Origin: Paramecium tetraurelia | Taxonomy: Eukaryota; Ciliophora; Oligohymenophorea; Peniculida; Parameciidae | Direction: 5' to 3' | Assembly (NCBI RefSeq): GCF_000165425.1 | Contig: NW_001799648.1 | Span: 1-64,000, forward strand | Length of the DNA: 64,000 nucleotides | In this document: piece after piece, positions 12,971 through 64,000 of the stretch | Layout: every line of letters begins with the position of its first letter | How positions within the stretch are numbered: position 1 is the first letter of the stretch | The notes under the pieces: model-generated | What the model was told of the DNA's origin: nothing | Database searches by the model: none | The model's input: the letters and a program-made list of their open reading frames with translations, nothing else | Made by a program: the position numbers and the translations under genes

Positions 12971-15900
12971 TCATTCTTCAATCTATTATTGTAACAACTA
13001 TGTCTTTAATTACTATGCAAGATCCTCTATCTTTTGTTATAATAATTCAATCTATTTAGTACGATCATCTTCATCTTCAGATCTAATTGGAAACCAATTC
13101 ACACTTTCAGATTGCACCTTATCCATGATCCAATACTCTAGTCCAGTGTATTCCGTTGAATCCTTATTTTACAGACAATAAATATAGAAAACATAATTCC
13201 ATAAGAAATGCTTGCTCTTTATGTGCTCTTCAAAGTCTTCTTGTTGTTTTTCAAGTGTTTGCCTATCAATACCACAAATAAAACATTTGTTCTTTTTATC
13301 ATCCTCGATTTGGTTTCTTTGATCTCTCAATTATGCAAAAGTATCAGTCATTATACCTGAGATGATATTGGTAAATAATAGTGCAAAGAACACGAAGTAA
13401 ACTGTATCATAGATGAATTTCAAGGGATCCCATTGTGCCATTGAACTACCAATCACTCCCGAAGTCATCAAAGTGATCATACAACTTATTAGACTGTGAC
13501 AAGGGTCATCCACTTATTCAGGATATATGTCATCCACATAATTATTGAATCCCACTATACTGAATACAAATTAGAACAACACTCCTAACAAAGCTACTAA
13601 AGATAGCTATTTTGCATTGTGGGATATTGCTTAAAATACGCTTTGCAATAATGATAATTATCCAAATAAATAGAATAAATGCAATGAAAAATAATACGTA
13701 TTTGAAATTAATCCAATAAATGCAATTGCAGTAAATGATATGTGAGACATAAAATCTTCACTTTTGAACACAATTATTAAATTAGATATCTTAGATATTA
13801 CATAGGTGTGAATCTTAGTCAAAGAGAATTACTCTTATTTGAGTTTCTTGAATTCCAATGAAGCCCTGCTTATTACATAAAATGTACATGCACATAAACT
13901 GAAGCCAAATTACAGTATGGATAAAATAAATAATGTTACTTCTTCATAGTCATCTGTTACTAGTGTTGATTGCTTATCTTTTATCATAACTGCATATGCA
14001 AATATCATAAAAATGTTAATGATTAATGACAATAATTATGAAATATTTATTAAGAGTTGAATTGTTTTATGTGTTATTGGTAAAATCCAATTCTATAAAC
14101 TAAAATTATAACTGATTTCACTGAAAATCATCTCCATTTCCTCAAGTAAAGATATCAATTTTTTTCTCTGTGTGTCTCTTGGTATTTTGAACATTATTTT
14201 ATCTCTGGTTTCATCGCTTAAAAATTGAAAAACTGGATGAGCAGGGAAGAATACCATTTGATATTCATTCTCATAGAAAATTTCAATTTTCCTTAAGTTA
14301 TTCAAACACATAGTCTAAATATCTTTTAAAGTTGGATTACTCTCAAATTCCTACTTAAAATGCTTCACCCACTTTTAATCCTTACTGACATACTCTATTT
14401 TCTCCTTAATTATGAACACATTCAACATTTATTGTATCTCATCAGAGAATCTAGCTTCCTTCTTAAAATCAAATATTTTCTCAATGCCAACCTTCTAAAC
14501 AATTAATTTTATGAAATTAACCAAAAATCTACAGTCCAGTTTCTATTATAATTCCTCATAGTTTTTTTGATTATTCCCTTCTAACACCAACATAATTGAT
14601 TGAATAATCTTTGCTTACAGTTCAAATAACTCATCCTGTTCTTCTGGAGTGTGGAGTTCCCTTTGAATTGATTGGCTTTCCTCTTTTTAAAATGTTTCAA
14701 ACGTAAAACATACATCTTCCATATATGTCGACTTACATAATGTGACTTAATTTAAAAAGCAAGGCAATTGAATGACTTCATTTATAAAATCCACTATTTG
14801 CTAAGTTATTGATACTACGTTCTTATTCAGTATCTTCAATAATATTCTTAATTCTTTAGTAGCAAACTCTATAAAGTTAATACTATTGATATGGACTGAA
14901 TCTTCCTTATCAGTTTATTCTCTTAGATAGTTTTTCATATGAACATTGTTGTTCTCACACATCAATTACAACATTCTAAATGCTCTCCACATCACTTTAA
15001 TTGATAATTATCTATTCTTTATAGTGTTTTAACTTTCAACGGCTGATGGTAGTGTTCGTTTCAGAGTTTCAGTCTTTTCACTAAACTATGTTAGATTATC
15101 CACATAAACAATAGAAAGAAATGGGTTTTATTTATCTTTCTAAAATTTAGACTTCTAAATCTTGAAATTAGTATTAACAAATTTGCTAAACTTAAGAATA
15201 GATTATTGCAGATTGCTCATCATCTAATTCGATGAATCTTATTTCAATAATTGAAGCAAAGAGTCTTAGCACTTGGAATTGCCTCCTAATAGAAATGCAT
15301 TTGAAAATATTAATAACTAATTGAATAATTCCCATCTATCATCAAAATTTTCCTTGAACATTTCATAAATCAATTGAGCTGCTCCACATCCAGCCAAAAA
15401 GCATTGTATTTCTTGAATCTATTATCTGGAATCGCTCCAAAATTCAGGTTCCCATTCATCTATTGCCAACTTGGCTTATTCATCTTGGCTGTTGATATTG
15501 GGATTCTTTTCGCTTATCATTCTAGTTAATATTTTCAAAAAGTAGCTTCTTAAATCATCATTCAATTTATGGGTGATATTCATCTAGATTAAGTTCTTTA
15601 AGAATTCTTCCAAAGTTATTGCTGGATCTTAAGTTTAATAGGCAACCAAAGAAAACTCATCGATTTTTGTGAATTCACTGCAAAGTTTATTAAACTCTTA
15701 TTCAATGAATCCTTAAAACTCCTCATTCTCATTGAATATTTTAATTAACTTCATCAACCTAATGTTCAATTCTACATTGTTGTCAGGTTCTTCTATTACT
15801 GAAAGTCTTTTTTTGGATTTCAAATGGAAGATCCTCTTTAGTGTTTGTTAAAGATTTGATTGAATCTTTTCATCTTATGTCAATTTAGTCTCAGTTACAA

Positions 15901-18900
15901 TTAATAATCTATTTATTATGCCATCCTGTTCATTCTATTCATTTTATTCGGTATCCTATTTCTCTTCTTATTTTAGTGTAGTTTGTGATTCAATTGCATT
16001 TTCATTGAATACCTTTTCTAATCTCAACAACACACTATTATCAAAGGTTCTAAACACTATTTTCATTATGTTTATCAGCACTTAACACAGATGAGTTATA
16101 TGACTTGATTTAAACCACATCTTCTAAATCTGAACCAAATGGCCTGCAATCTTGAACAACAATTAATGGATCTTAAGATTATCGATCTCTTTACTTAATT
16201 GACCTTCCAATTCCGATAAGAAATTATCATTTAAAAACAACAAGTTGATGGAGTATAATATCTCCTGCATACATGCAAAGATGTAGGAGAACATAAATTA
16301 AAACCTAACACCATCAACGATCTATACTTGCTTTATGTAATTGCACCCTTTCAACAATAGTATTTAATCTAATTAATGTCGAATTATCTATAATTAATTT
16401 GAATCTTACCTCTAAATCCTCCTAGATGCAAAGCTAACTGATCAATTCCATCTGACTATTATAATAAAGACGATTGATGTAGCTTCGTAAAAAGTGCTAT
16501 AATGGCCAGCAATTACTTTTATACGAATTTTTCATCAAAAACAACAAGGATTGAAAAGGGTGCATGACTCGACATTTCTCCTGATTAATGACATTACTAA
16601 ATATATGTCTAATAATTATACTGATCTTCAACTAATAAACTGAATATTTCAAAATGAATAATCATGTATTATAGTTGTGGTTGCATACGGATTAGCTTTG
16701 TCTCCTCTATCTTCTCATAATTAGCACTGTAATCGTCAATTAATTCATTAAAACTCTCAGCATCCCAAGCTTTCGACTTTTGCAAAGGCGTCTCTGGTTT
16801 ATTTACAGAATCAATTAAAAAATCAGACTGCAATTCATTGAGAACATAAATTAAATTCCTGTTTTATTTCTGCTGCAACAGAGCTAGAATCTATAATTGA
16901 TTAAATTTGATTGTCTTATTATGATCATACAAGAAAACTCTCAGTGAATCAAACAGCTTGACCCTGTACATACTATCTGGCTTTTCCTTATTCATTTATT
17001 GAATGATAGATCCAATAGCCACAGATACTTCATTTTCATTGTATAGCAATTCTTTATTGTTATGGTAGAGTTCTCTTACAAAATCAATGCAACAAGAATT
17101 GTATTGTAAATGACAATAGATTTATTTTAATGGCCATTTTATTTCAATCTTATTGGTTGCATGATTCCAAATAAAAAGAGTCAAGAATTTGTAACAAGAA
17201 TTCAATAGCCCATACAAATATGGATTTATTTCATCTGCTCCAGAAATGTAAGCTACTAATGTTTGATGCATATCCAATGCTTTAAATAGAGTTTAATTTG
17301 TTTTATCATTTTCTTCACACTCGTTAAAAGCCAAAGAAATTTAAACTACTTAACTTGGAAATCTATGCAATTTCAATGAAACACACAATTTATTAAGATC
17401 CTCAATAATCTCATCCACTTAAATGTTAGAAGTACTTTAGTTCTCTTTTGTTATAGTGTAAACATTCTTATCACTCAACTGTTCTAATCGTTATCTGATT
17501 TGAATGCATTTGCTAATCAATTCTTTGACATTCTTTTGACAATTTTTAGAGAGCAATACAATTTAAGAGAAGTGTTTGATTAATTCTCTTCTCTGACCAA
17601 GCATCCTATTAAATAATTATAAAGCTGTCTCGACCATCTTTGGTTCCTGCATCAAGGATATTTCAGCAAATACCAAAATCACATTATTATCGAAATTTTT
17701 GAATAAATTTCTATTATCTAATAAATCTTTAATGACTTATATCCATTAAGGAATGTTATAGGAATCTTACTCAGTTTTGTCTTTAGAACCACTCAAACTT
17801 TTAGCAAAGTCTTTAAAGACTGAACTATTGTTGTCTAATAATTATTATTGTTCTTCAGGAGGCTTATGTGAAAATCTATGCACAAGATCTACCATTCCAC
17901 TGATTAATCCCTTTTTAGGAAGTGTGTTGTTTACTGACTCGTTTGTATCATCACTCTCTCTCTTATTTCTGAAATATGCTACCATTTAATTGATCCTAAT
18001 GTCATTTTCTAAATCCAGAATATTTAAGATGATATTAGATGCTAGCATCTTACATTCCATTATTGGTTTATTCTCTGAAGATACTTTAGTCATTCTATAT
18101 TTTGCTTTTTTGATATTCTCCTCTCCCTTTTAATCCTCTAAGCTTTAGAAATCTTTTTGGCAAGAGCATATTCTCAACAAATCTTATAATAATTGCATAG
18201 TATCTATTTCTAAATTCATAGTCAATAATGTTTTTATTATCATTAATACTCTTTACAGAGTCTAATTGTATTTCTGATCATAAGTAAAATGTGTAAATTT
18301 AGTGATAAATTATTAGACGTACTTTATGATGTTGTTGAGATCACTCACATTTTATTAGGCCAACTGATTGTTTTATCCTCCAAAACTACTAACTTTTCTC
18401 ATGGATGTCCTTTTCTCTATTTAAATTAATTCATTCTCTTCCCAATCTATGACTTTGCTAATCACAAGGGATTGATATCCAGGAGTGTCTACAAAGGCCA
18501 AATGAATGACCTTTAAATATGATTCAAATGTATTTATAGATTGAGAATGATTATCTTCAACCAAGGCCAATAAAATAGAAATTGATATATTTTCTTTAAC
18601 AAAATCCTATGATAATTTATTTCTGTTATAACACACATCTCCTAATAGATTGAAATAGCCTTAAAAGTAATTCCATGTCTATAACCCATCCTATTCTTGA
18701 CTTTCTTAATATATCTAACGTATTCTTCTCCACATAGGTTTTAATTTGTTGATTCTGCAAAGCACTTCAACTTTGTTTTTGGTATTCAATCTAAATTTGA
18801 AATTCAATAACTCATTACTTTGGAATACCAACTTTAAAATTAAATTTTGATTTTTTAATATAGCTCTTCCTTTGCAAACACAAATACTACTCAAAATGGA

Positions 18901-20940
18901 TAAATATTTTTCATTAGGATTTTATTTCATTTTTTCAAATACTTTCTGAATGTGATCATCTGTGACAAACCTTTAAATAGATTCATAATTATCTTCTAAT
19001 AATTCTTTCAAACTATCCTAGGCTCTTGCTTCATCATCCATAGCCTATTCTAAAAAGTCTTTCAAATACTTTCCCATATCTTACTTCAATTATTTGTTAT
19101 TCTATGTTAACTCCTTGATCAATTGGTAGGTTAATTTGAATATTTTTTTCATCTTTTTTTATAAATTCTTAACATCAATACCATACAACTTCTTCTCATA
19201 TATGGGCACTAAGATTTTCATAGCCAAATCAATGATATACGTTTCTTTTATGCATTATTGTCGGTTGGCAACCTCAAACTGCAAGAATTGAATCAATTGT
19301 TATATCACTTCGACTACTTGAGACAATTATTAAACATGAAGCAATTTCCAAATAACATCAACTTGTTTATTCAAAATCAAAACAAATTAAAAGAGCACCT
19401 CTTAAGCTGACAAAACAAACATTAAGTTATTTTTAATGTTTCCTTTGACCTTTTTGATTTAAAAAGCATGTTAATGTTCTTTTTCCTCAAAAGCCAATTG
19501 TTTCTTTATCACAGTTGTCTCCAATTCCTCATCTTCTTTGATGCTATCATTCCATTAGTCCTCAATTTGAACATTTTATAATAATTCCTTATCTATTGAC
19601 ATTTGTATATAGGAATTCTCTACGATTTCCTACTAGCCTTATTTCGCAGCCAAGATTTCCACCACTTAGTTGGATTCCTATATGTATTCATGCAATTAAG
19701 GCAATTAATCCCTAGATGTGAGCACCTTACCTGAGATGTAGTTCCGAAGAATGAATTCTTACTATGGGATTTTCTTGTTGACTTATGATTATGCTTGTTA
19801 TTATTAATCAACAACACTTCTCTATCTTGGTGCCACTCTTGAAAAATCCTTCAAAATATCGCCGCTGTTTTAGAAAACTGAGCCTCTTGAGTATTCTTTA
19901 ATAAGCTGTGGTTATTGATTGCGCTTATAATCAGAGGTTGGTTATATCACTTACAATTCCCAAATGGCTGCCAATGGAATGTGTGTCCCGGCTTGTTACA
20001 ATGAGACAATCTATTATTCTCCATTCAAATACGTGCCATCTTCAGTGTATTATAGATAGATTAATTCATAATTCCTTATAGATTTCTTTTCGATCCTCTG
20101 ATCATTCCGCATAAATAACTTCATTTTCCAACTAGTCTTACTGTTATTGGTGATGATCACCTAATATCTTTGCACATCCTACAATCTCTTAATATAAGCC
20201 AAACAACTTTCATCATCCAACCATTATATGGGTTTTTCGATAAAATCCAAACAAAATTGTTGCTTGGTATTCACCAATAAGAAGGGTTCATCAAAATATA
20301 TTGGTTAACCATCCTTCTGATATGTTTGATATGCTTCTATTCTAAATAATGCCTAACTGGAGGGTTTACTGCTCAGACTGACTTGAAATGCTTCCATTGA
20401 CTATTCCGAACATTTGTAAGATCCGACTAAAAAGTATTCAGAGTCATAATGTTTCAATACTATTTCCTAACCAAACAGAACCTCTTCATCAATTTTGGTT
20501 TCCACAAAGGAGAAATATTGATTCAACTCTGTTTTCAATCGTTAATCCAGGAGATCCTGATTTGCTCTAATTTTGATAACTCTTGCATGCTTACTTTTTG
20601 TGAGACTTCATGAACTCATCATGAATTTCAAAACTCCCCTTGGGAAGCACTTAAAATAAAGACTCCCTAAAATTGCTTATCTTGGACAAATTTGTGTAAG
20701 TCATATAATAAACATTAGTCTGGGTGTATCTATCACAATTATGCGATAACCATACCCTTTCGTTACTATCATCCCAAAATCCCCCTGAATTCTTACAATT
20801 TACCCATATCGAAGATTATTCATAATATTAAATTATAATATCACAGAAATATTTGAGTTTTTTTCTCAATTCAAGTGTTTTGGAATTCAAGAGAAGGATG
20901 TGTTAGTAGTTTAATTTATCGAATGTGGACCGACCGACAT
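12971..20940 (-). CDS. IP3/ryanodine receptor-type Ca2+ release channel
   Basis: Up to about 2,650 residues, close to the family's usual 2,700. The C-terminal channel is clear: LLQSVFQAISHNAKQLSLVA precedes the S5-like FQFVFSIVGFNNYVDD, the pore segment MITLMTSGVIGSSM, the S6-like TVYFVFFALLFTNIISGIM, then TDTFAQLR and the IP3R/RyR zinc motif CFICG...FEEHIKSKH, and a terminal coiled coil (KQIELLQQKIEDLAQQL). The bulk upstream is helical repeat, as expected for the RIH/armadillo region, with a divergent N-terminal part (WQPFGNC; RVWLSHNCDRY). The channel would release Ca2+ from stores such as ER or alveolar sacs; whether IP3 gates it cannot be told. The filter lacks the usual GGGVGD acidic residue. 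The N-terminal start is uncertain: ATG 20940 is 51 bp from the divergent gene and joins the main frame only by an unresolved change. Confidence 0.88.
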
Positions 20941-49511: not shown

Positions 49512-50261
49512 ATGAATCCCTAAGTCAGATATAGGCCTCCTCTTCCTAAATTCGACTAAAAATTAGTAGATATTAAAAATATCGAAGAAACTAAATAGAA
49601 GTCTGTGTTATAGAAGTCAGACAAGAGAAGGTTTAAATAAGTGAACCTTTTGATTGATGAGATGCTCAAAAAGCTCACACAAGTTAATTTTTAATTCCTG
49701 TAAAATTTAAACCAAGAAAACATCAAAGTTCAATGTCTAGAGATATTGGGGGATGAATTAATAGAAAAAGTAAAATCGAGAAAATATTCCTCGATAGCTT
49801 GTGCTTTGATTATCCACTCCCTAAGAATATTGCTTATCCCATTGAGAATCAAAGAAATTACTTAAATTATTGATGTGGACGAGAAGCAAGTTCGCAAGAT
49901 CTTAATTCAACTGAATTTAATTAAACCATTCAACGAAGACGCCTTTACAATAGCTTTCATGATTAGAATTTGTACTTGCATAGGATTTAATCAGAAATTT
50001 TAAACTTTATGCAAATTCTTCTATTCACATCTGAAGAATTTGCATCTCGTTTAAGGAGAACACGAGCATGTCATAGCTTCAGTCTTGGTTAAACTAACAG
50101 GAGATTTCATATTCAAAGAGAAGGGAGGAATCAATATACACACAGTATCTGAAATCGCTGGATGTTGTGAGATCTCCCTTAAAACTCTCTTATCAAAATT
50201 AACACCTTATAATTAAACTATGTATGAATCAGCTTTTGAATTTTATCAGAGAACTAAATGA
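49512..50261 (+). CDS. TFIIB-like cyclin-fold protein
   Basis: About 249 residues, intronless. It starts MNPQVRYRPPLPKFDQK. The core has two cyclin-like helical repeats: VKSRKYSSIACALIIHSLRI (the conserved K-S-x-x-x-I-A-x-A-x-I-x-x-x-x-R pattern of TFIIB and Brf) then LRIKEITQIIDVDEKQVRKI, and in the second repeat EHEHVIASVLVKLTGDF with VSEIAGCCEISLKTLLSKL. These repeats bind TBP-DNA in general transcription factors. The N-terminal zinc ribbon of TFIIB is missing, so it may be a ribbon-less paralogue, or the ribbon may be in an exon I did not find upstream. It converges on the Tlde1-like gene with 57 bp between stops. Confidence 0.72.
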
Positions 50262-50318: not shown

Positions 50319-50932
50319 TCATTCATACAGAATTTCTTAATCCATGATGATGTCATCTGCCCTTATATTTTCACCCAATGGATCCTCATCCTAAACAATG
50401 AGAGTGTCTCCTACTCTAAGTTTTTTTCTATTCTCCTCATTTATGATGATACATCTCAATTAATAATTAATTATTACCCTGCAGAACATCCATCAACGGG
50501 AGGTACACTCCAATCACTTGGTGTGCAACAAGCGCATCCGTGAATCATAATTTCTGTTCTTCCACACATTCTATCTTAGTCGTTGCCGTCTATCCAAAAA
50601 GAACAAGGTCTATCCACTGGAGGATTATGCATAGTATTTTAGCATGTTTTTATTGTATATGTATTTGATGGGGCAGGTCCTTGATTTTTTATACATTAAG
50701 CTTTTGGGTCATTTCTATACTAATTATGAATTCATATAATAAATACCTTTCCGGCCCCAGAATACCCAAAAGTATTAATTTATGACTCTCCACTTCCTCC
50801 ATAGAATCTTCCAGTATTGGTAAAGTAATAGAATGTCATTGGAGCTCTTGTTTTTAAATCTTGGCAACATGTTTGACCACAATTTCCAGCCTATGCTATG
50901 GCAACAAATAATAGAGCAAGAATATATTTCAT
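50319..50932 (-). CDS. Secreted Tlde1-like (L,D-transpeptidase fold) protein
   Basis: About 187 residues with a signal peptide (MKYILALLFVAIAQAG). The mature part matches the Tlde1/DUF2778 plan: a glycine-rich lead with TFGYSGAGKYRNDPKAQ, the NQGPAPSNTYTI strand, GRTEIMIHG with the conserved histidine, and CSAGCIIINEENRKKL with the catalytic-type cysteine in S-x-G-C. In bacteria this fold cuts or exchanges peptidoglycan stem peptides as a type VI effector. Two Paramecium-type introns (27 nt near 50727-50753 and 23 nt near 50461-50483) split the motifs, and joining them restores both, so it is a spliced eukaryotic gene and not contamination. A bacterial origin and a role against ingested bacteria are inferred. 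It shows no break. Confidence 0.82.
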
Positions 50933-51586
50933 AAAAATTGATAATTTTTATAACTAACATTTTGTTTGCGTAAAAATATCGGTAATCTTCAAACAATTGT
51001 TCATGGATATAGTAATTTTTCAATAATTGGAGTTAAATCCAATCTTAATTTCTAATTGGCTTCATTTAAGATGGTATATACACATTTAGATGATGTAATA
51101 AGAATAAGATTTACCCTTCAGAATTTGATCTTTTGATGGCTTAATCTAATCTCATTTGTATAAATTCACATCCATAATTAAATATTTACATCTATAATTC
51201 ATCTAATAATAGGTAAATTCTGTCTTGAATTACTAAATATCCAAATGTATTTAAATATAGAATAATATTCTAAGGAGCAATTAATAAAAGTCCCCTCATT
51301 TTAATGCATCGAAATATTTTATACTATCTTTCCTAATTCAACATATTGTAGACTAATATCCTTTGACTCAGTTGCACAGTCTCCTCTTCCCCCAAATAAA
51401 TCTCCTTAATTATATATCGTTTTTATTCTAAACTTTAGATCCAATAACAATAACATCATTATCCATTAATGAATGTGTAATTAATCAATAATATTACATA
51501 ATTGAATTATAATTCTATTGATACTTATCTATTAATATGAAATTTTTTATATGAATTATAAAATATAGTGGGTAAAATATTTAATT
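50933..51586. other. Spacer, nothing recognised
   Basis: AT-rich, 0.65 kb between two minus-strand genes. It includes the upstream region of the Tlde1-like gene. Confidence 0.4.
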
Positions 51587-52953
51587 TCATTTTTTAGTAT
51601 ATTTGAGTTTCACAATTTATGATCCCAACTTAGGCTAATTAAGAGTAGACAAGTTTTTGTATGATTAAGGTCTTATAGACTTAATGGCAGGTTCTATAGT
51701 ACGATCTTCCCCAACAATATCAGATTAGTAAATAGAAATTTCATCTTCTGGTGCTGATTCTTAGATTGATTCCCTATTCTAATTGGAATGGTAGGAGTTC
51801 TTGAATCTGGTAGGCTAGGTGTTGTGTCGTTGTGACTATTAAGGATGGCATTCTTGGAATGAAATATGAAATAAAGGATATGATAAATCTTTTTCAACGT
51901 ATCCACTTGCTTGAATAACTCTGCGAAATAATTATTTAAACTTCTCATATTCTTGGGGGAAATCGGAGGCATTGCTGGTTTTGACTAAGTTTAGGAAGTG
52001 AATAAACTCAATGGGAGCTGATTTAAAGGTGATTTCTGGAATGATGGATAATTTAATATTCTCCAGTTTTTTGAGTTTCAACGCTTTGTTGTCAGCTTTA
52101 ACCTTGAAGACGGTAGAGTTCGTTGCATAAACTAACAAGATGTAGGCAAGTGATTCTAAGTCGTCCTTCGGTGTGGGAACTAACAGTATAATGGCCATTC
52201 TTACATTGATTCAAATGTTGATTAATACTCGAGTATTTATTGAGAAAATGCTTGTTTGAAGTGGATTTATAGTTTTCCAAACAGTAGATTGACCCATGTT
52301 GCAACTTGAATTTGGTAGCAAATTTGAAGTCACTAAGTAAGATTTCATTACCATTAGTTGTAAGTAATAGTTTTTTAGGTCTGATGTTCCTGTGGACAAT
52401 TTGGTGTTTATGGATGGTTTCCAAACAAGTTAACTAGAATATCAAAGGGTGAATACAGTTTATATTGCTATGAGACACAATATAGGCAGAGGTATGGATT
52501 TGGACAGATAATTGTATATGAGCTTAATGGAGGGTCCATGTCTTTACAGGATTTGATAGTGATACATTTGACCACTGATGATCTATTCTCCGCAATTGAC
52601 TAAGATTGGGACACAGTTGGCTAAGAATATGAGATACGTTTATACCATCCTTCAATCTTAATAAAAATTACAGTTCTGGGATTATCTCATTTTGTTGGGT
52701 TTATCTTGAATAGTTAGGGGATAAGTACCTTTTCATCTTAATTAAGTAAAACTTATCTTTGTTATCTGTTTAGTTGATATCATCAGACTCTTTCTGGTTG
52801 ATGGCTAGCTATCTTTTAACTTCATCAAATATTACCTAAATACATGTTGTATTATTTCCCTCTGTAAATATTTTTGATTATGCTGTATTTCTAGTCAATA
52901 ATTATGGAATTGGTTGTCTCAGTAGTGCTTTTGGTTTAAGATGTATTCAGCAT
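51587..52953 (-). CDS. CK1-fold pseudokinase
   Basis: About 435 residues with the CK1 family layout: beta3 lysine in FYLIKMKR, helix region NEIIPELQFLLRLKDGINVS, catalytic-loop region IHKHQIVHRNIRPKKLLLT, ILLSDFKFATKF in place of DFG, and the CK1 signature PTPKDDLESLAYILLVY with KLKKLENIKLS and APIEFIHFLNL. The catalytic Asp of HRD is Asn, the DFG glycine is Lys and the glycine-rich loop reads IYRGKQYNMYLA. So phosphotransfer is unlikely and a scaffold or regulatory role is inferred. The C-terminal tail is Ser/Gln-rich (EDEISIYQSDIVGEDRTIE). Introns of 31 and 24 nt in the N-lobe and one or more in the middle are needed; the linkage between lobes near 52,440-52,640 is partly uncertain. Confidence 0.72.
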
Positions 52954-53190
52954 TTAAATAAAAATTATATAATGTGAAGTTTCAAAGAAATTGCACCTTT
53001 AAAACATTGGCCAAGATGGATATCCAGTATTTAAGGTGTAGGTACGAATTGGGACTGATATGAAGGGAGTGTGAATTCCAAATACGATACTTTAATAAAA
53101 AGATGTTAGGGATTTAGATAAATATGAAACATTATGAGATAATATTTTTATTGTATATTTTTTAATAAAAATATAATTTCTTTTATAAAA

Positions 53191-61121: not shown

Positions 61122-63869
61122 ATGAGTGAAGCTCAAGTAAATCCGGAAGTAGATAACTAATCTGTAATATCAGAAGACAGCAACAATGAAGATGTTGACG
61201 TGTTTGGTCAAGATTAAGAGATGTAATGAAAAATTATGAATTCAGTGATAAGTTTCCTCTCTTAACGAGTATTTTGGATAGTAGTTGGTCTCAAATATTA
61301 GTAAATCTCTTAACTATATATGCTCTATTTGGCGATGATATTAGAATTATTGCCTTTGATAAGAGGGCTGATGATGGATTTGATGTGATCACCATAATAT
61401 GCATGGTAAATTCATCAAATATAGTAGATAATATTTTCAATAGAAATCATCATTGCCAGTTTGGTTAGAACTGACTATTTTAATTCATTCTTTTTTTGGC
61501 TTGATATAATATCAACAGTTTCTTAGATTTTGGATATAACCTCGTTCAATATTGCAGTTGGTTTATAGTAACTAATTTTAAGCTTAAATATATTTTAGAG
61601 GTTCTGTGGCTGCAAAATCCGCCTCTTAATTGTCCCAAGCAAATAAAGCATCTAAAACAAGTTCGAAAGCAATTCGAGTGGTTCGACTTGTTAGATTAAT
61701 TAGAATAGTTAAGTTGTATAAGGCTGCAAGCTATTCATAAGAATAAGCCTTTAAAAGACAGCCCATCCGAACTTAGACTACGAAAAAAAGCAAAGCAACA
61801 ATTTATCCCTCGGTGTACGAAAATATTAACAATGGGCCAGTTGAACAGGAGAATCTAAATAAAAAGGAGAATAATACTGAATAAAGGGGTAGTATTGAGA
61901 GTCATAAATTAGAAGGAGAAGATAATGCGAATAGTTAAGAAAATCGAGAAAATTAAAATATGGTTGCAAAATAACAATAAATTGACAATTCTATTCCAAA
62001 GGTCTAATAAATTCGTAGACAATCCATGAAAGAGCCATCGTAAGTCAAAGCCAAAGAAAAAAAAGAATCCAGAGTGAGCAAAAGGTTGTCGGATTCCACA
62101 ACGAAGAAAGTCATCATCCTTGTCATTTTATTACTCTTAATAATGCCTTTATTTAGTTCTGATTACTATTTTGAACCATCCTATAGTTTAGCATATGCAG
62201 CTGAGTATGTAAGAGTAGTGGCTGAGATTCCAAATACAAAACTAACTGAGATCAATTAGACAATATATTTCGTGATTGATTAGCATAAATCATTTGACAC
62301 GCCAGTAGGATACATTACCAACCCATTTACTGAGATAGAGAATTATGAAACCCCTTCATATTAGTATTTAAGAGAAAGTTCGAAAAGCTATTATTTTGAA
62401 TTAGTAGATCCTGTATTGGTGGGTTTGGAATACATTGGTGATCCTGTCATTCTTTTTGTCTCAGATAATTCTGATGTTGAGTCTAAGAATTCAATCATCA
62501 ATATTGTTAATACTTTATTTGTGAGTGCCGTATTGTTATTTGGAGCAATTGCCTTTTCTAATGATGCTAATAATGTTGCCTTGAAACCAATAGATAGGAT
62601 GATAGTGAAAGTCAATTTAATAGCTAAGAATCCCTAATTGGCCAAGGAGATGAAATTAGAATCTGATGGAACTCAAAAGGAAACCACTTAGATAGAAAAT
62701 GCTATCATCAAAATAGGGGCCTTGTTGGCATTGGGATTTGGTGATGCAGGTTCTGCTATTATAGGAACTAATATGGCATCATCAGGAGATGTGGATCCTA
62801 TGTTACCAGGTAAACGTAAATGGGCAATTTATGGATTTTGTGATATTCGTAATTTCACTGATGCCACTGAAGTCTTGCAAAAAGATGTGATGTTGTTTGT
62901 AAATAATATAGCTGAGATTGTTCATTCAATGGTGGATCGATATCAAGGATCAGCCAATAAAAACATAGGAGATGCATTCCTATTAGTTTGGAAAATCAAT
63001 GATTCTTAATGGTATGAAGATGGAAATGAAATCAAATGGTAAATATCATATTATTATTTAAGGTCCAACTTGACATTCATAAACTAATTAGCTGATTGTG
63101 CTCTAATTGCTTTCATGAAGATATATGCTAAGATCAATAGAGAACCTAAAATATTAGAATATAGAAATGATGAGAGATTAAGTCAACGTTTGCCAGGATA
63201 TAAAGTAAAGATGGGATTCGGATTGCATATAGGATGGGGCATAGAAGGTGCCATTGGATCAGAATTCAAAATTGATGCCTCTTATCTGAGTCCAAATGTT
63301 AATATGGCTTCTCGTTTAGAAGCTGCTACTAAACAATATGGTGTGGCTGTCTTAATCTCAAGCGAATTGCACCAATATTTCTCCAATGAAGTCAAGAAAT
63401 ACACCAGATAGATTGATAAAGTCACTGTTAAGGGAAGTGTCAAACCTATTGGGTTGTTCACTGTGGAGATGGAGGCTGATGATCTGCCTCCTAGCAAATA
63501 GGATTATCCTTAAGAAGAGAAGTAATAAGTGATGTATGAGAAAAAGCAAATCTTTCTTTAATAACTAGAATCTGGGGATTTCAATGCAGAATTGTATATA
63601 AAAAGAAACAAGGATCTTGGACTTATAACGAAGAATGTTAATCAAGAATTCTTGGTAATCGTATCGTTTAATTATCCTAGCATCAATTTGGCTAAGGGTT
63701 TTAAGGTTATCTCTTGGGAAATTGGAAAGAGGCCCACATGTTGTTTGAAAAAGCGAAGTAAATCAGACCTAATGATGGTCCCATAAGTACTCTATTTAAT
63801 GTAATGGGGGAAACAAATTTCAAAGCTCCTTCAGATTGGAAAGGCTATAGAGAGTTAACAGAAAAATGA
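61122..63869 (+). CDS. Voltage-sensor/class III nucleotide cyclase fusion
   Basis: About 880 residues. An acidic N-terminus (MSEAQVNPEVDNQSVISED) leads to membrane segments SQILVNLLTIYALFGDD, FFWLDIISTVSQILDI and an S4-like helix with spaced arginines (AIRVVRLVRLIRIVKLYK). After a cytosolic linker come a TM segment (KVIILVILLLLIMPLF), an extracytosolic domain (YYFEPSYSLAYAAEYV), another TM (FVSAVLLFGAIAF) and a cyclase domain: AIYGFCDIRNFTDATEVLQ with the first metal Asp, NKNIGDAFLLVWK with the second, LHIGWGIEGAIGSEFKIDA and LSPNVNMASRLEAATKQYG with the transition-state Arg. Ciliate adenylyl and guanylyl cyclases fused to channel-like modules are known; the K-I-D motif leaves ATP versus GTP open. 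A 24 nt intron near 63040-63063 and others are clear. One N-terminal frame change near 61200 is unresolved. Confidence 0.85.
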
Positions 63870-63950
63870 ATATTTTAAGTCTATAATGTTCGGCATTTCT
63901 TTTGTTTCGAAATTATATATTATAAGAAAATACAATTTATAATAAGAATT

Positions 63951-64000
63951 ATGAAAGTGGAACCTCAAAGTTTGAATGAAGAGTTATTGCAATATAAATC
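63951..64000 (+). CDS. Start of a further gene, cut by window edge
   Basis: ATG at 63951 opens MKVEPQSLNEELLQYK in the ciliate code with protein-like composition, 81 bp after the cyclase stop. Too short to identify. Confidence 0.4.
   Translation, partial: MKVEPQSLNEELLQYK

Follow-up and report, generated by a model that had tools for sequence, protein, structure and literature searches.

The genome of the ciliate Paramecium tetraurelia carries a spliced gene for a Tlde1-domain protein that is probably a horizontally acquired, secreted peptidoglycan LD-carboxypeptidase/transpeptidase of the L,D-transpeptidase fold, acting on ingested bacteria. We infer the secretion, catalysis, substrate and site of action of the protein. 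The gene occupies positions 50932-50319 on the minus strand of the window, by which we mean the whole stretch of 64,000 nucleotides that was analysed, and which belongs to an assembly totalling 69.07 Mb in 231 contigs. The coordinates are exact, the ATG starting at 50932 and the TGA ending at 50319, and the features are as follows.

50747..50932, minus strand: exon 1, with the start codon, a hydrophobic, signal-like N-terminus (MKYILALLFVAIAQAG) and the start of the domain, to GYSGAGK
50720..50746, minus strand: intron 1, 27 nt, GT-AG, with an in-frame TGA; copy A has a 28-nt intron at the equivalent place
50478..50719, minus strand: exon 2, with YRND, GPAPSNTYTI, GRTEIMIHG, the cysteine-rich loop and CSA-G
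50540..50542, minus strand: His122 codon CAC, predicted catalytic His; invariant in 22/22 A3 rows, and H in 95% of 99 bacterial/viral rows
50455..50477, minus strand: intron 2, 23 nt, GT-AG, splitting the Gly143 codon; copy A has a 29-nt intron at the equivalent place
50451..50453, minus strand: Cys144 codon TGT, predicted nucleophile; invariant in 22/22 A3 rows, and C in 95% of the 99 rows
50319..50454, minus strand: exon 3, with the domain end, the C-terminal tail and the TGA stop

The spliced gene and its domain

The three exons encode a product of 187 amino acids, and the gene is open throughout only if TAA and TAG are read as glutamine; this code and the size of the introns point to Paramecium. 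Both introns are supported by a paralogue on a second contig (copy A, described below), where GT-AG introns, of 28 and 29 nt, interrupt the gene at the same two places. Intron 2 interrupts the Gly143 codon directly ahead of the predicted catalytic Cys144 codon; unspliced RNA would therefore be without that cysteine in frame, and the active site around Cys144 would form only upon splicing. An earlier note on this DNA had quoted four motifs (GYSGAGKYRND, GPAPSNTYTI, GRTEIMIHG and CSAGCIII) and placed two introns inside the domain; all four motifs are present in the spliced protein, and the introns, of 27 and 23 nt, are matched in position by those of copy A. Its signal peptide, read here as probable secretion, likewise finds a counterpart in an N-terminus that is signal-like by eye and by hydropathy (11-aa peak of 2.86 at residue 3).

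Searched against Pfam-A, the spliced protein matches PF10908 (Tlde1_dom) at E 1e-27 and 97.4 bits, well above the cut-off of 30.1, and this is the single family returned at E <= 1; the unspliced DNA reaches 65.6 bits, and copy A scores 92.9 bits (E 2.4e-26, same cut-off). The membership of the Tlde1 (DUF2778) family that the earlier note had proposed is thereby upheld. A match to the YkuD profile (PF03734), which the note had named as a further check, is absent: Pfam at E <= 1 gave Tlde1_dom alone for the window protein, in a search where the HMMER filters drop most matches above ~0.1. In A3, a 22-row alignment with both ciliate copies included, YkuD is matched by 14 of the rows at E <= 0.01 (best 7e-5). 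NCBIfam has no match for either ciliate protein, and PHROGs returned a function-unknown family at E 3e-12 and a weak second match. The PDB sequence search with the single protein found no L,D-transpeptidase and one unrelated match (E 0.29), while profiles A2 and A3 gave three and one weak matches, respectively, with the L,D-transpeptidase 4lpq in each (E 0.97 and 0.69).

The 13 invariant columns of A3 include GP.P, GR, IHG and S.GC, and His122, Ser141, Gly143 and Cys144 are invariant across all 22 rows, both intact ciliate copies among them, so that the His/Cys pair singled out in the earlier note aligns with family-conserved residues. Both ciliate copies deviate at four positions where a single residue otherwise reaches at least 91%, namely G81 (N/T), G95 (P/P), L105 (I/I) and F119 (I/I). 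Residue 142 of the ciliate protein is Ala, which is not rare, as it is found there in 11 of 101 rows, counting the two ciliate ones.

Paralogous copies in a duplicated block

The second locus lies on contig C10. Ten matches in antiparallel order, at 67-88% nucleotide identity, connect 34.7-62.5 kb of the window with 220.6-248.4 kb of C10, a pattern such as would be expected had a block or the whole genome been duplicated; the window gene and copy A account for one of the ten by matching each other. The block (window 34656-62528, C10 220602-247939) is possibly longer, C10 having been compared over ~28 kb only. On C10, two tandem copies, A and B, stand between the counterparts of the two genes that flank the window gene. 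Copy A is intact, encodes 186 amino acids and has its introns at the same positions as the window gene; copy B is broken by an in-frame TGA and by more stops once the reading frame is lost. The features around the window gene that bear on this history are listed here.

51016..51123, minus strand: remains of a further tandem copy, since lost, that correspond to the last part of exon 2, to intron 2 and to exon 3 of copy A; gap-rich and considered non-coding
51372..51417, minus strand: possible exon 1 relic of the lost copy, collinear with 51016..51123; the match, of 47 nt at 79% (E 0.004), is weak by itself
51574..52971, minus strand: protein-kinase-like flanking gene, matching C10 along 1410 nt at 74.6%; its Pkinase score of 25.5 bits falls short of the 31.7 cut-off
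49512..50261, plus strand: flanking open frame from its first ATG, matching C10; TFIIB/cyclin-like by eye, with no Pfam match

The relic at 51016..51123 has a local score of 55, against at most 37 in 200 dinucleotide shuffles and at most 36 among 204 pieces taken from elsewhere in the window. Exon 1 of the window gene is nearer to copy B (79% of nucleotides) than to copy A (70%), and a single alignment of 1540 nt, at 77%, spans copy B and the neighbouring gene. Judged from these similarities, it is most likely that the A-B tandem pair predates the duplication, and that A then disappeared from the window block and B from the C10 block. Each block would thus retain one intact gene of a former tandem pair, and the gene would therefore predate the duplication.

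The window gene and copy A are under purifying selection. With a custom script of the Nei-Gojobori type, dS between them is 1.28 and dN 0.235, giving a dN/dS of 0.183 (bootstrap 0.092-0.303), and none of the 993 usable resamples, of 1000, reached 1 or more. Constraint is concentrated in residues 16-155, where the ratio is 0.108 (~0.11); it is weaker in the C-terminal tail (residues 156-187; 29 codons, 0.70), and across the 15 codons of the signal region the ratio is 0.63.

Relatives in bacteria and viruses

Relatives of the ciliate protein were met on plasmids and in phages, with 20 plasmid records (14 from Pantoea) and 59 phage records (48 from Erwinia phages) in tblastn at E <= 1. Motif scans added 42 loci in GTDB genomes and 39 in viral contigs; the GTDB scan relied on a single degenerate motif, derived from an alignment with the ciliate protein as its first row, and its bacterial sample is biased accordingly. 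In viral contigs, the single protein gave three candidate stretches and no relatives, and A2 gave the 39 loci. In even samples the Tlde1 domain is rare: it is above cut-off in 7 of 289 genomes in the class of G001, the genome with the Sphingobium locus, in 8 of 369 in the class of G006 (Tatumella) and in 1 of 246 in the phylum of G003 (a planctomycete), each count including the centre genome, which was already known to match. In loci L100 (G008) and L056, the Tlde1 domain ends a long protein that by eye is of the RHS kind (Stenotrophomonas genome).

The 127 domain hits reduced to 101 distinct aligned rows, two of them ciliate, and after seven poorly aligned rows had been dropped, among them the long-type T6SS rows L096 and L104, which are unaligned at the motif, 94 rows entered the tree. 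Here the ciliate pair joins 12 enterobacterial rows, mostly Erwiniaceae, with support of 97/83, within a starred set of 40 rows; under the midpoint root used, the ciliate stem is long, at 4.19 changes per column. With the two common Cys columns removed and 23 of the 101 rows left out, a 78-row tree recovers the same grouping at 96/72, not starred, and the row nearest to the ciliate pair by path is then the viral contig L057. The ciliate pair is therefore placed among bacterial and viral rows, and the bacterial origin claimed in the earlier note, for which it had called for a phylogeny, is borne out in the wider form of bacterial or phage. Nested among bacterial sequences, the gene stands in a eukaryotic context, this genome being the sole eukaryotic one searched. 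A donor group near Erwiniaceae is suggested; as judged from these sequences, there is more support for a source in bacteria or phages than for any particular donor.

Tlde1 matches (L109, L110, L114 and L115) were also seen in two genomes from the alphaproteobacterial class; at 0.9 and 1.1 Mb these are small, perhaps incomplete, and may be those of endosymbionts. In L109, L110 and L115 the spacing between His and Cys is short, at 10. An alphaproteobacterial endosymbiont was considered as donor and set aside, as the three copies retained for the tree belong to a starred clade far from the ciliate pair.

The nearest bacterial proteins differ from the ciliate one in their architecture. The short Tlde1 proteins of Pantoea, Erwinia, Tatumella and Siccibacter share with it the domain, the catalytic motif and the Cys71-Cys114 pair, and are joined to it in the tree; they are of ~120 aa, with the domain from the very start, whereas the ciliate protein adds a signal-like N-terminus, two introns and a C-terminal tail. 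The member of this clade on the Pantoea plasmid pVag1 has tssD on one side and, on the other, a gene of unknown function that may encode its immunity protein; a search with the protein of that neighbour found none, and included no positive control. The pVag1 protein is the one annotated member of the nearest clade that follows a T6SS tube gene, a second Pantoea protein being without the Cys pair, and two other short Tlde1 proteins are also directly downstream of a T6SS tube (tssD/Hcp) gene. A T6SS effector was rejected as a description of the ciliate protein itself, the locus of which lies between two ciliate genes duplicated along with it, and which has a signal-like N-terminus instead. A DUF2778 protein encoded by Erwinia phage vB_EamM_Y3, and two viral contigs like it, have the same domain (tblastn E 2e-7), and this group branches just outside a set made up of the ciliate-Erwiniaceae group and the long viral row L066 (89/84). 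Unlike the ciliate protein it is found in a phage context, without the Cys pair and without a cysteine-rich loop.

The domain slice of the ciliate protein has nine cysteines, compared with 0-4 in the 99 bacterial/viral rows, and all 12 cysteines of the whole protein are common to copy A, which has one extra in the signal region. Cys71 and Cys114 are both present in 13 of the 99 rows and one occurs without the other in 4, so that the pair is both-or-neither in 95, a test inflated by near-copies; the two residues may form a disulfide common with the Erwiniaceae group. At the columns of Cys88, 101, 124, 126, 127 and 140, none of the 99 rows has a cysteine. Four of these six cysteines (C124/C126/C127/C140) fall in the loop between the predicted catalytic His and Cys, where no cysteine occurs in the 99 bacterial/viral rows; among the 101 aligned rows, the cysteine-rich active-site loop is thus seen in the ciliate copies only. 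The spacing from His to Cys, measurable in 96 of the 101 rows including the two ciliate ones, is 22 residues in both ciliate copies versus 10-17 in the 94 bacterial/viral rows where the two residues align. Two apparent exceptions from the pattern search were rejected: a spacing of 21 in L106 arose from the wrong His, alignment with L107 and L108 giving ~13, and the single loop Cys among 111 pattern matches (L116) looks like the same artefact.

For the fold, an AlphaFold model (pLDDT 93.4) was made of a Tatumella relative from the nearest clade with 28 other rows. Compared with the PDB by Foldseek, ranks 1-24 consist of L,D-transpeptidases together with two cell-shape enzymes, Bd1075 and Pgp2, which we take to be LD-carboxypeptidases. 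The best E is 1.1e-3, with none below 0.001 and TMq ~0.5-0.6, and the probability falls to 0.01 at rank 25; Tlde1a is not among the 50 of 117 matches listed. By its model, the Tatumella relative, a bacterial protein and not the spliced ciliate one, is predicted to fold as an L,D-transpeptidase.

Proposed function and alternatives

Enzymes of this family use a Cys and a His to cleave or exchange D-Ala4 of tetrapeptide stems. In the ciliate, the signal peptide would route the protein into the secretory pathway, where disulfides would stabilise it, and it would act in the food vacuole or outside the cell. His122 would activate Cys144 for attack on the meso-DAP3/D-Ala4 bond of bacterial tetrapeptide stems, and the bond would be either hydrolysed (LD-carboxypeptidase activity) or resealed with another D-amino acid in place of D-Ala, so that the wall of ingested bacteria would be damaged or trimmed. 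The ciliate is presumed to lack peptidoglycan, and therefore would need no immunity protein. Use in food vacuoles or in defence, as put forward in the earlier note, is likewise a proposal. Counting against this reading, five peptidoglycan-related domains, YkuD included, gave no match in its own genome, in searches run exon by exon that may miss intron-split genes; each was matched in 3-10 of 14 control genomes. The four changed conserved positions, Ala142 and the weak PDB matches also speak against it.

The domain shares its name with Salmonella Tlde1a, a T6SS LD-carboxypeptidase/LD-transpeptidase with a His/Cys active site and disulfides (PMC9638812), as are predicted for the ciliate protein. 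It differs from the ciliate protein in being delivered by the T6SS and in having His129, within an (S/T)HGC motif, where the ciliate has Ala142 (PMC9638812); this correspondence is by motif only, none of the searches having yielded an alignment of the ciliate protein to Tlde1a. According to the same report, the H129A variant exchanges at wild-type level, has little crosslinking left and a reduced carboxypeptidase activity, and is no longer toxic to E. coli (PMC9638812). By analogy, exchange may be the favoured reaction of the ciliate enzyme, or its activity may be weak. A fuller history, which we put forward tentatively, is that an interbacterial or phage wall-editing weapon became a secreted ciliate enzyme, represented by two ancient paralogues each kept once after the genome duplication, and that a new cysteine-clamped active-site loop tuned it to D-amino acid exchange in, or trimming of, the peptidoglycan of food bacteria in phagosomes.

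The protein might instead be exported from the cell or stored in secretory organelles, and serve as a weapon on bacteria or to guard against endosymbionts and not for digestion in the food vacuole. The nearest-clade member and the two other short Tlde1 proteins directly after tssD/Hcp, the place of antibacterial cargo, lend this some credit, as does the report that Trichomonas vaginalis is aided against bacteria by NlpC/P60 enzymes gained through lateral transfer (PMC6299479). Paramecium is, however, a bacterivore that would meet bacteria most commonly in its food vacuole, and we regard this alternative as unlikely. It is unlikely, too, that the fold has been kept for a new use, with the secreted protein working as a cysteine transferase or carboxypeptidase on substrates other than peptidoglycan, for instance the cell's own surface proteins. 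The cysteine-rich loop beside the active site, the four changed conserved residues, the long stem and the variable C-terminal tail are all compatible with such a change, but the catalytic motif has been retained under purifying selection and we know of no non-peptidoglycan substrate for the Tlde1 family. The same retention weighs on the suggestion that the protein is catalytically dead and recognises muropeptides as a binding protein: G81 and G95 are lost in both copies, yet His122, Ser141, Gly143 and Cys144 are kept in both despite a dS of 1.28, and we regard a dead binder as improbable. Bacterial contamination or a chance resemblance, for which the bacterial look of the domain and nothing more speaks, has a negligible probability, contamination being excluded by the ciliate introns, code and duplicated neighbours and countered by eukaryotic-type genes in the same window (for example with IP3-receptor/ryanodine domains), and chance by the Pfam E of 1e-27.

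If the preferred reading, a secreted enzyme acting on ingested bacteria, is true, the gene is a further example of weapons passing from bacteria to their predators and offers a handle on peptidoglycan digestion by ciliates. Bacterial wall-degrading genes are known in other eukaryotes, also in bivalves and ladybird beetles. The laterally acquired NlpC/P60 peptidoglycan hydrolases of Trichomonas vaginalis are likewise a protist's use of a bacterial gene against peptidoglycan, with a different enzyme family (PMC6299479). In Tetrahymena feeding on bacteria, lysozyme and chitinase genes are reported to be regulated, and the word transpeptidase is absent from that report (PMC7232342). A literature search by title or beginning of the abstract, with wider searches of partial coverage and subscription papers mostly outside them, found no report of the Tlde1 domain in ciliates; automatic database annotation may already name it there.

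Elsewhere in the window, two long open frames on the minus strand at 12971-20607 carry RIH, Ins145_P3_rec, RIH_assoc and Ion_trans domains, as in an IP3/ryanodine-receptor-like channel, and an open frame on the plus strand at 61384-63954 has an adenylate/guanylate cyclase catalytic domain. Near the Tlde1 gene, at 48602-48273 on the minus strand, a small open frame with no Pfam match has a signal-like start (MNCKTLVLVVLAFTAVQVFG...).
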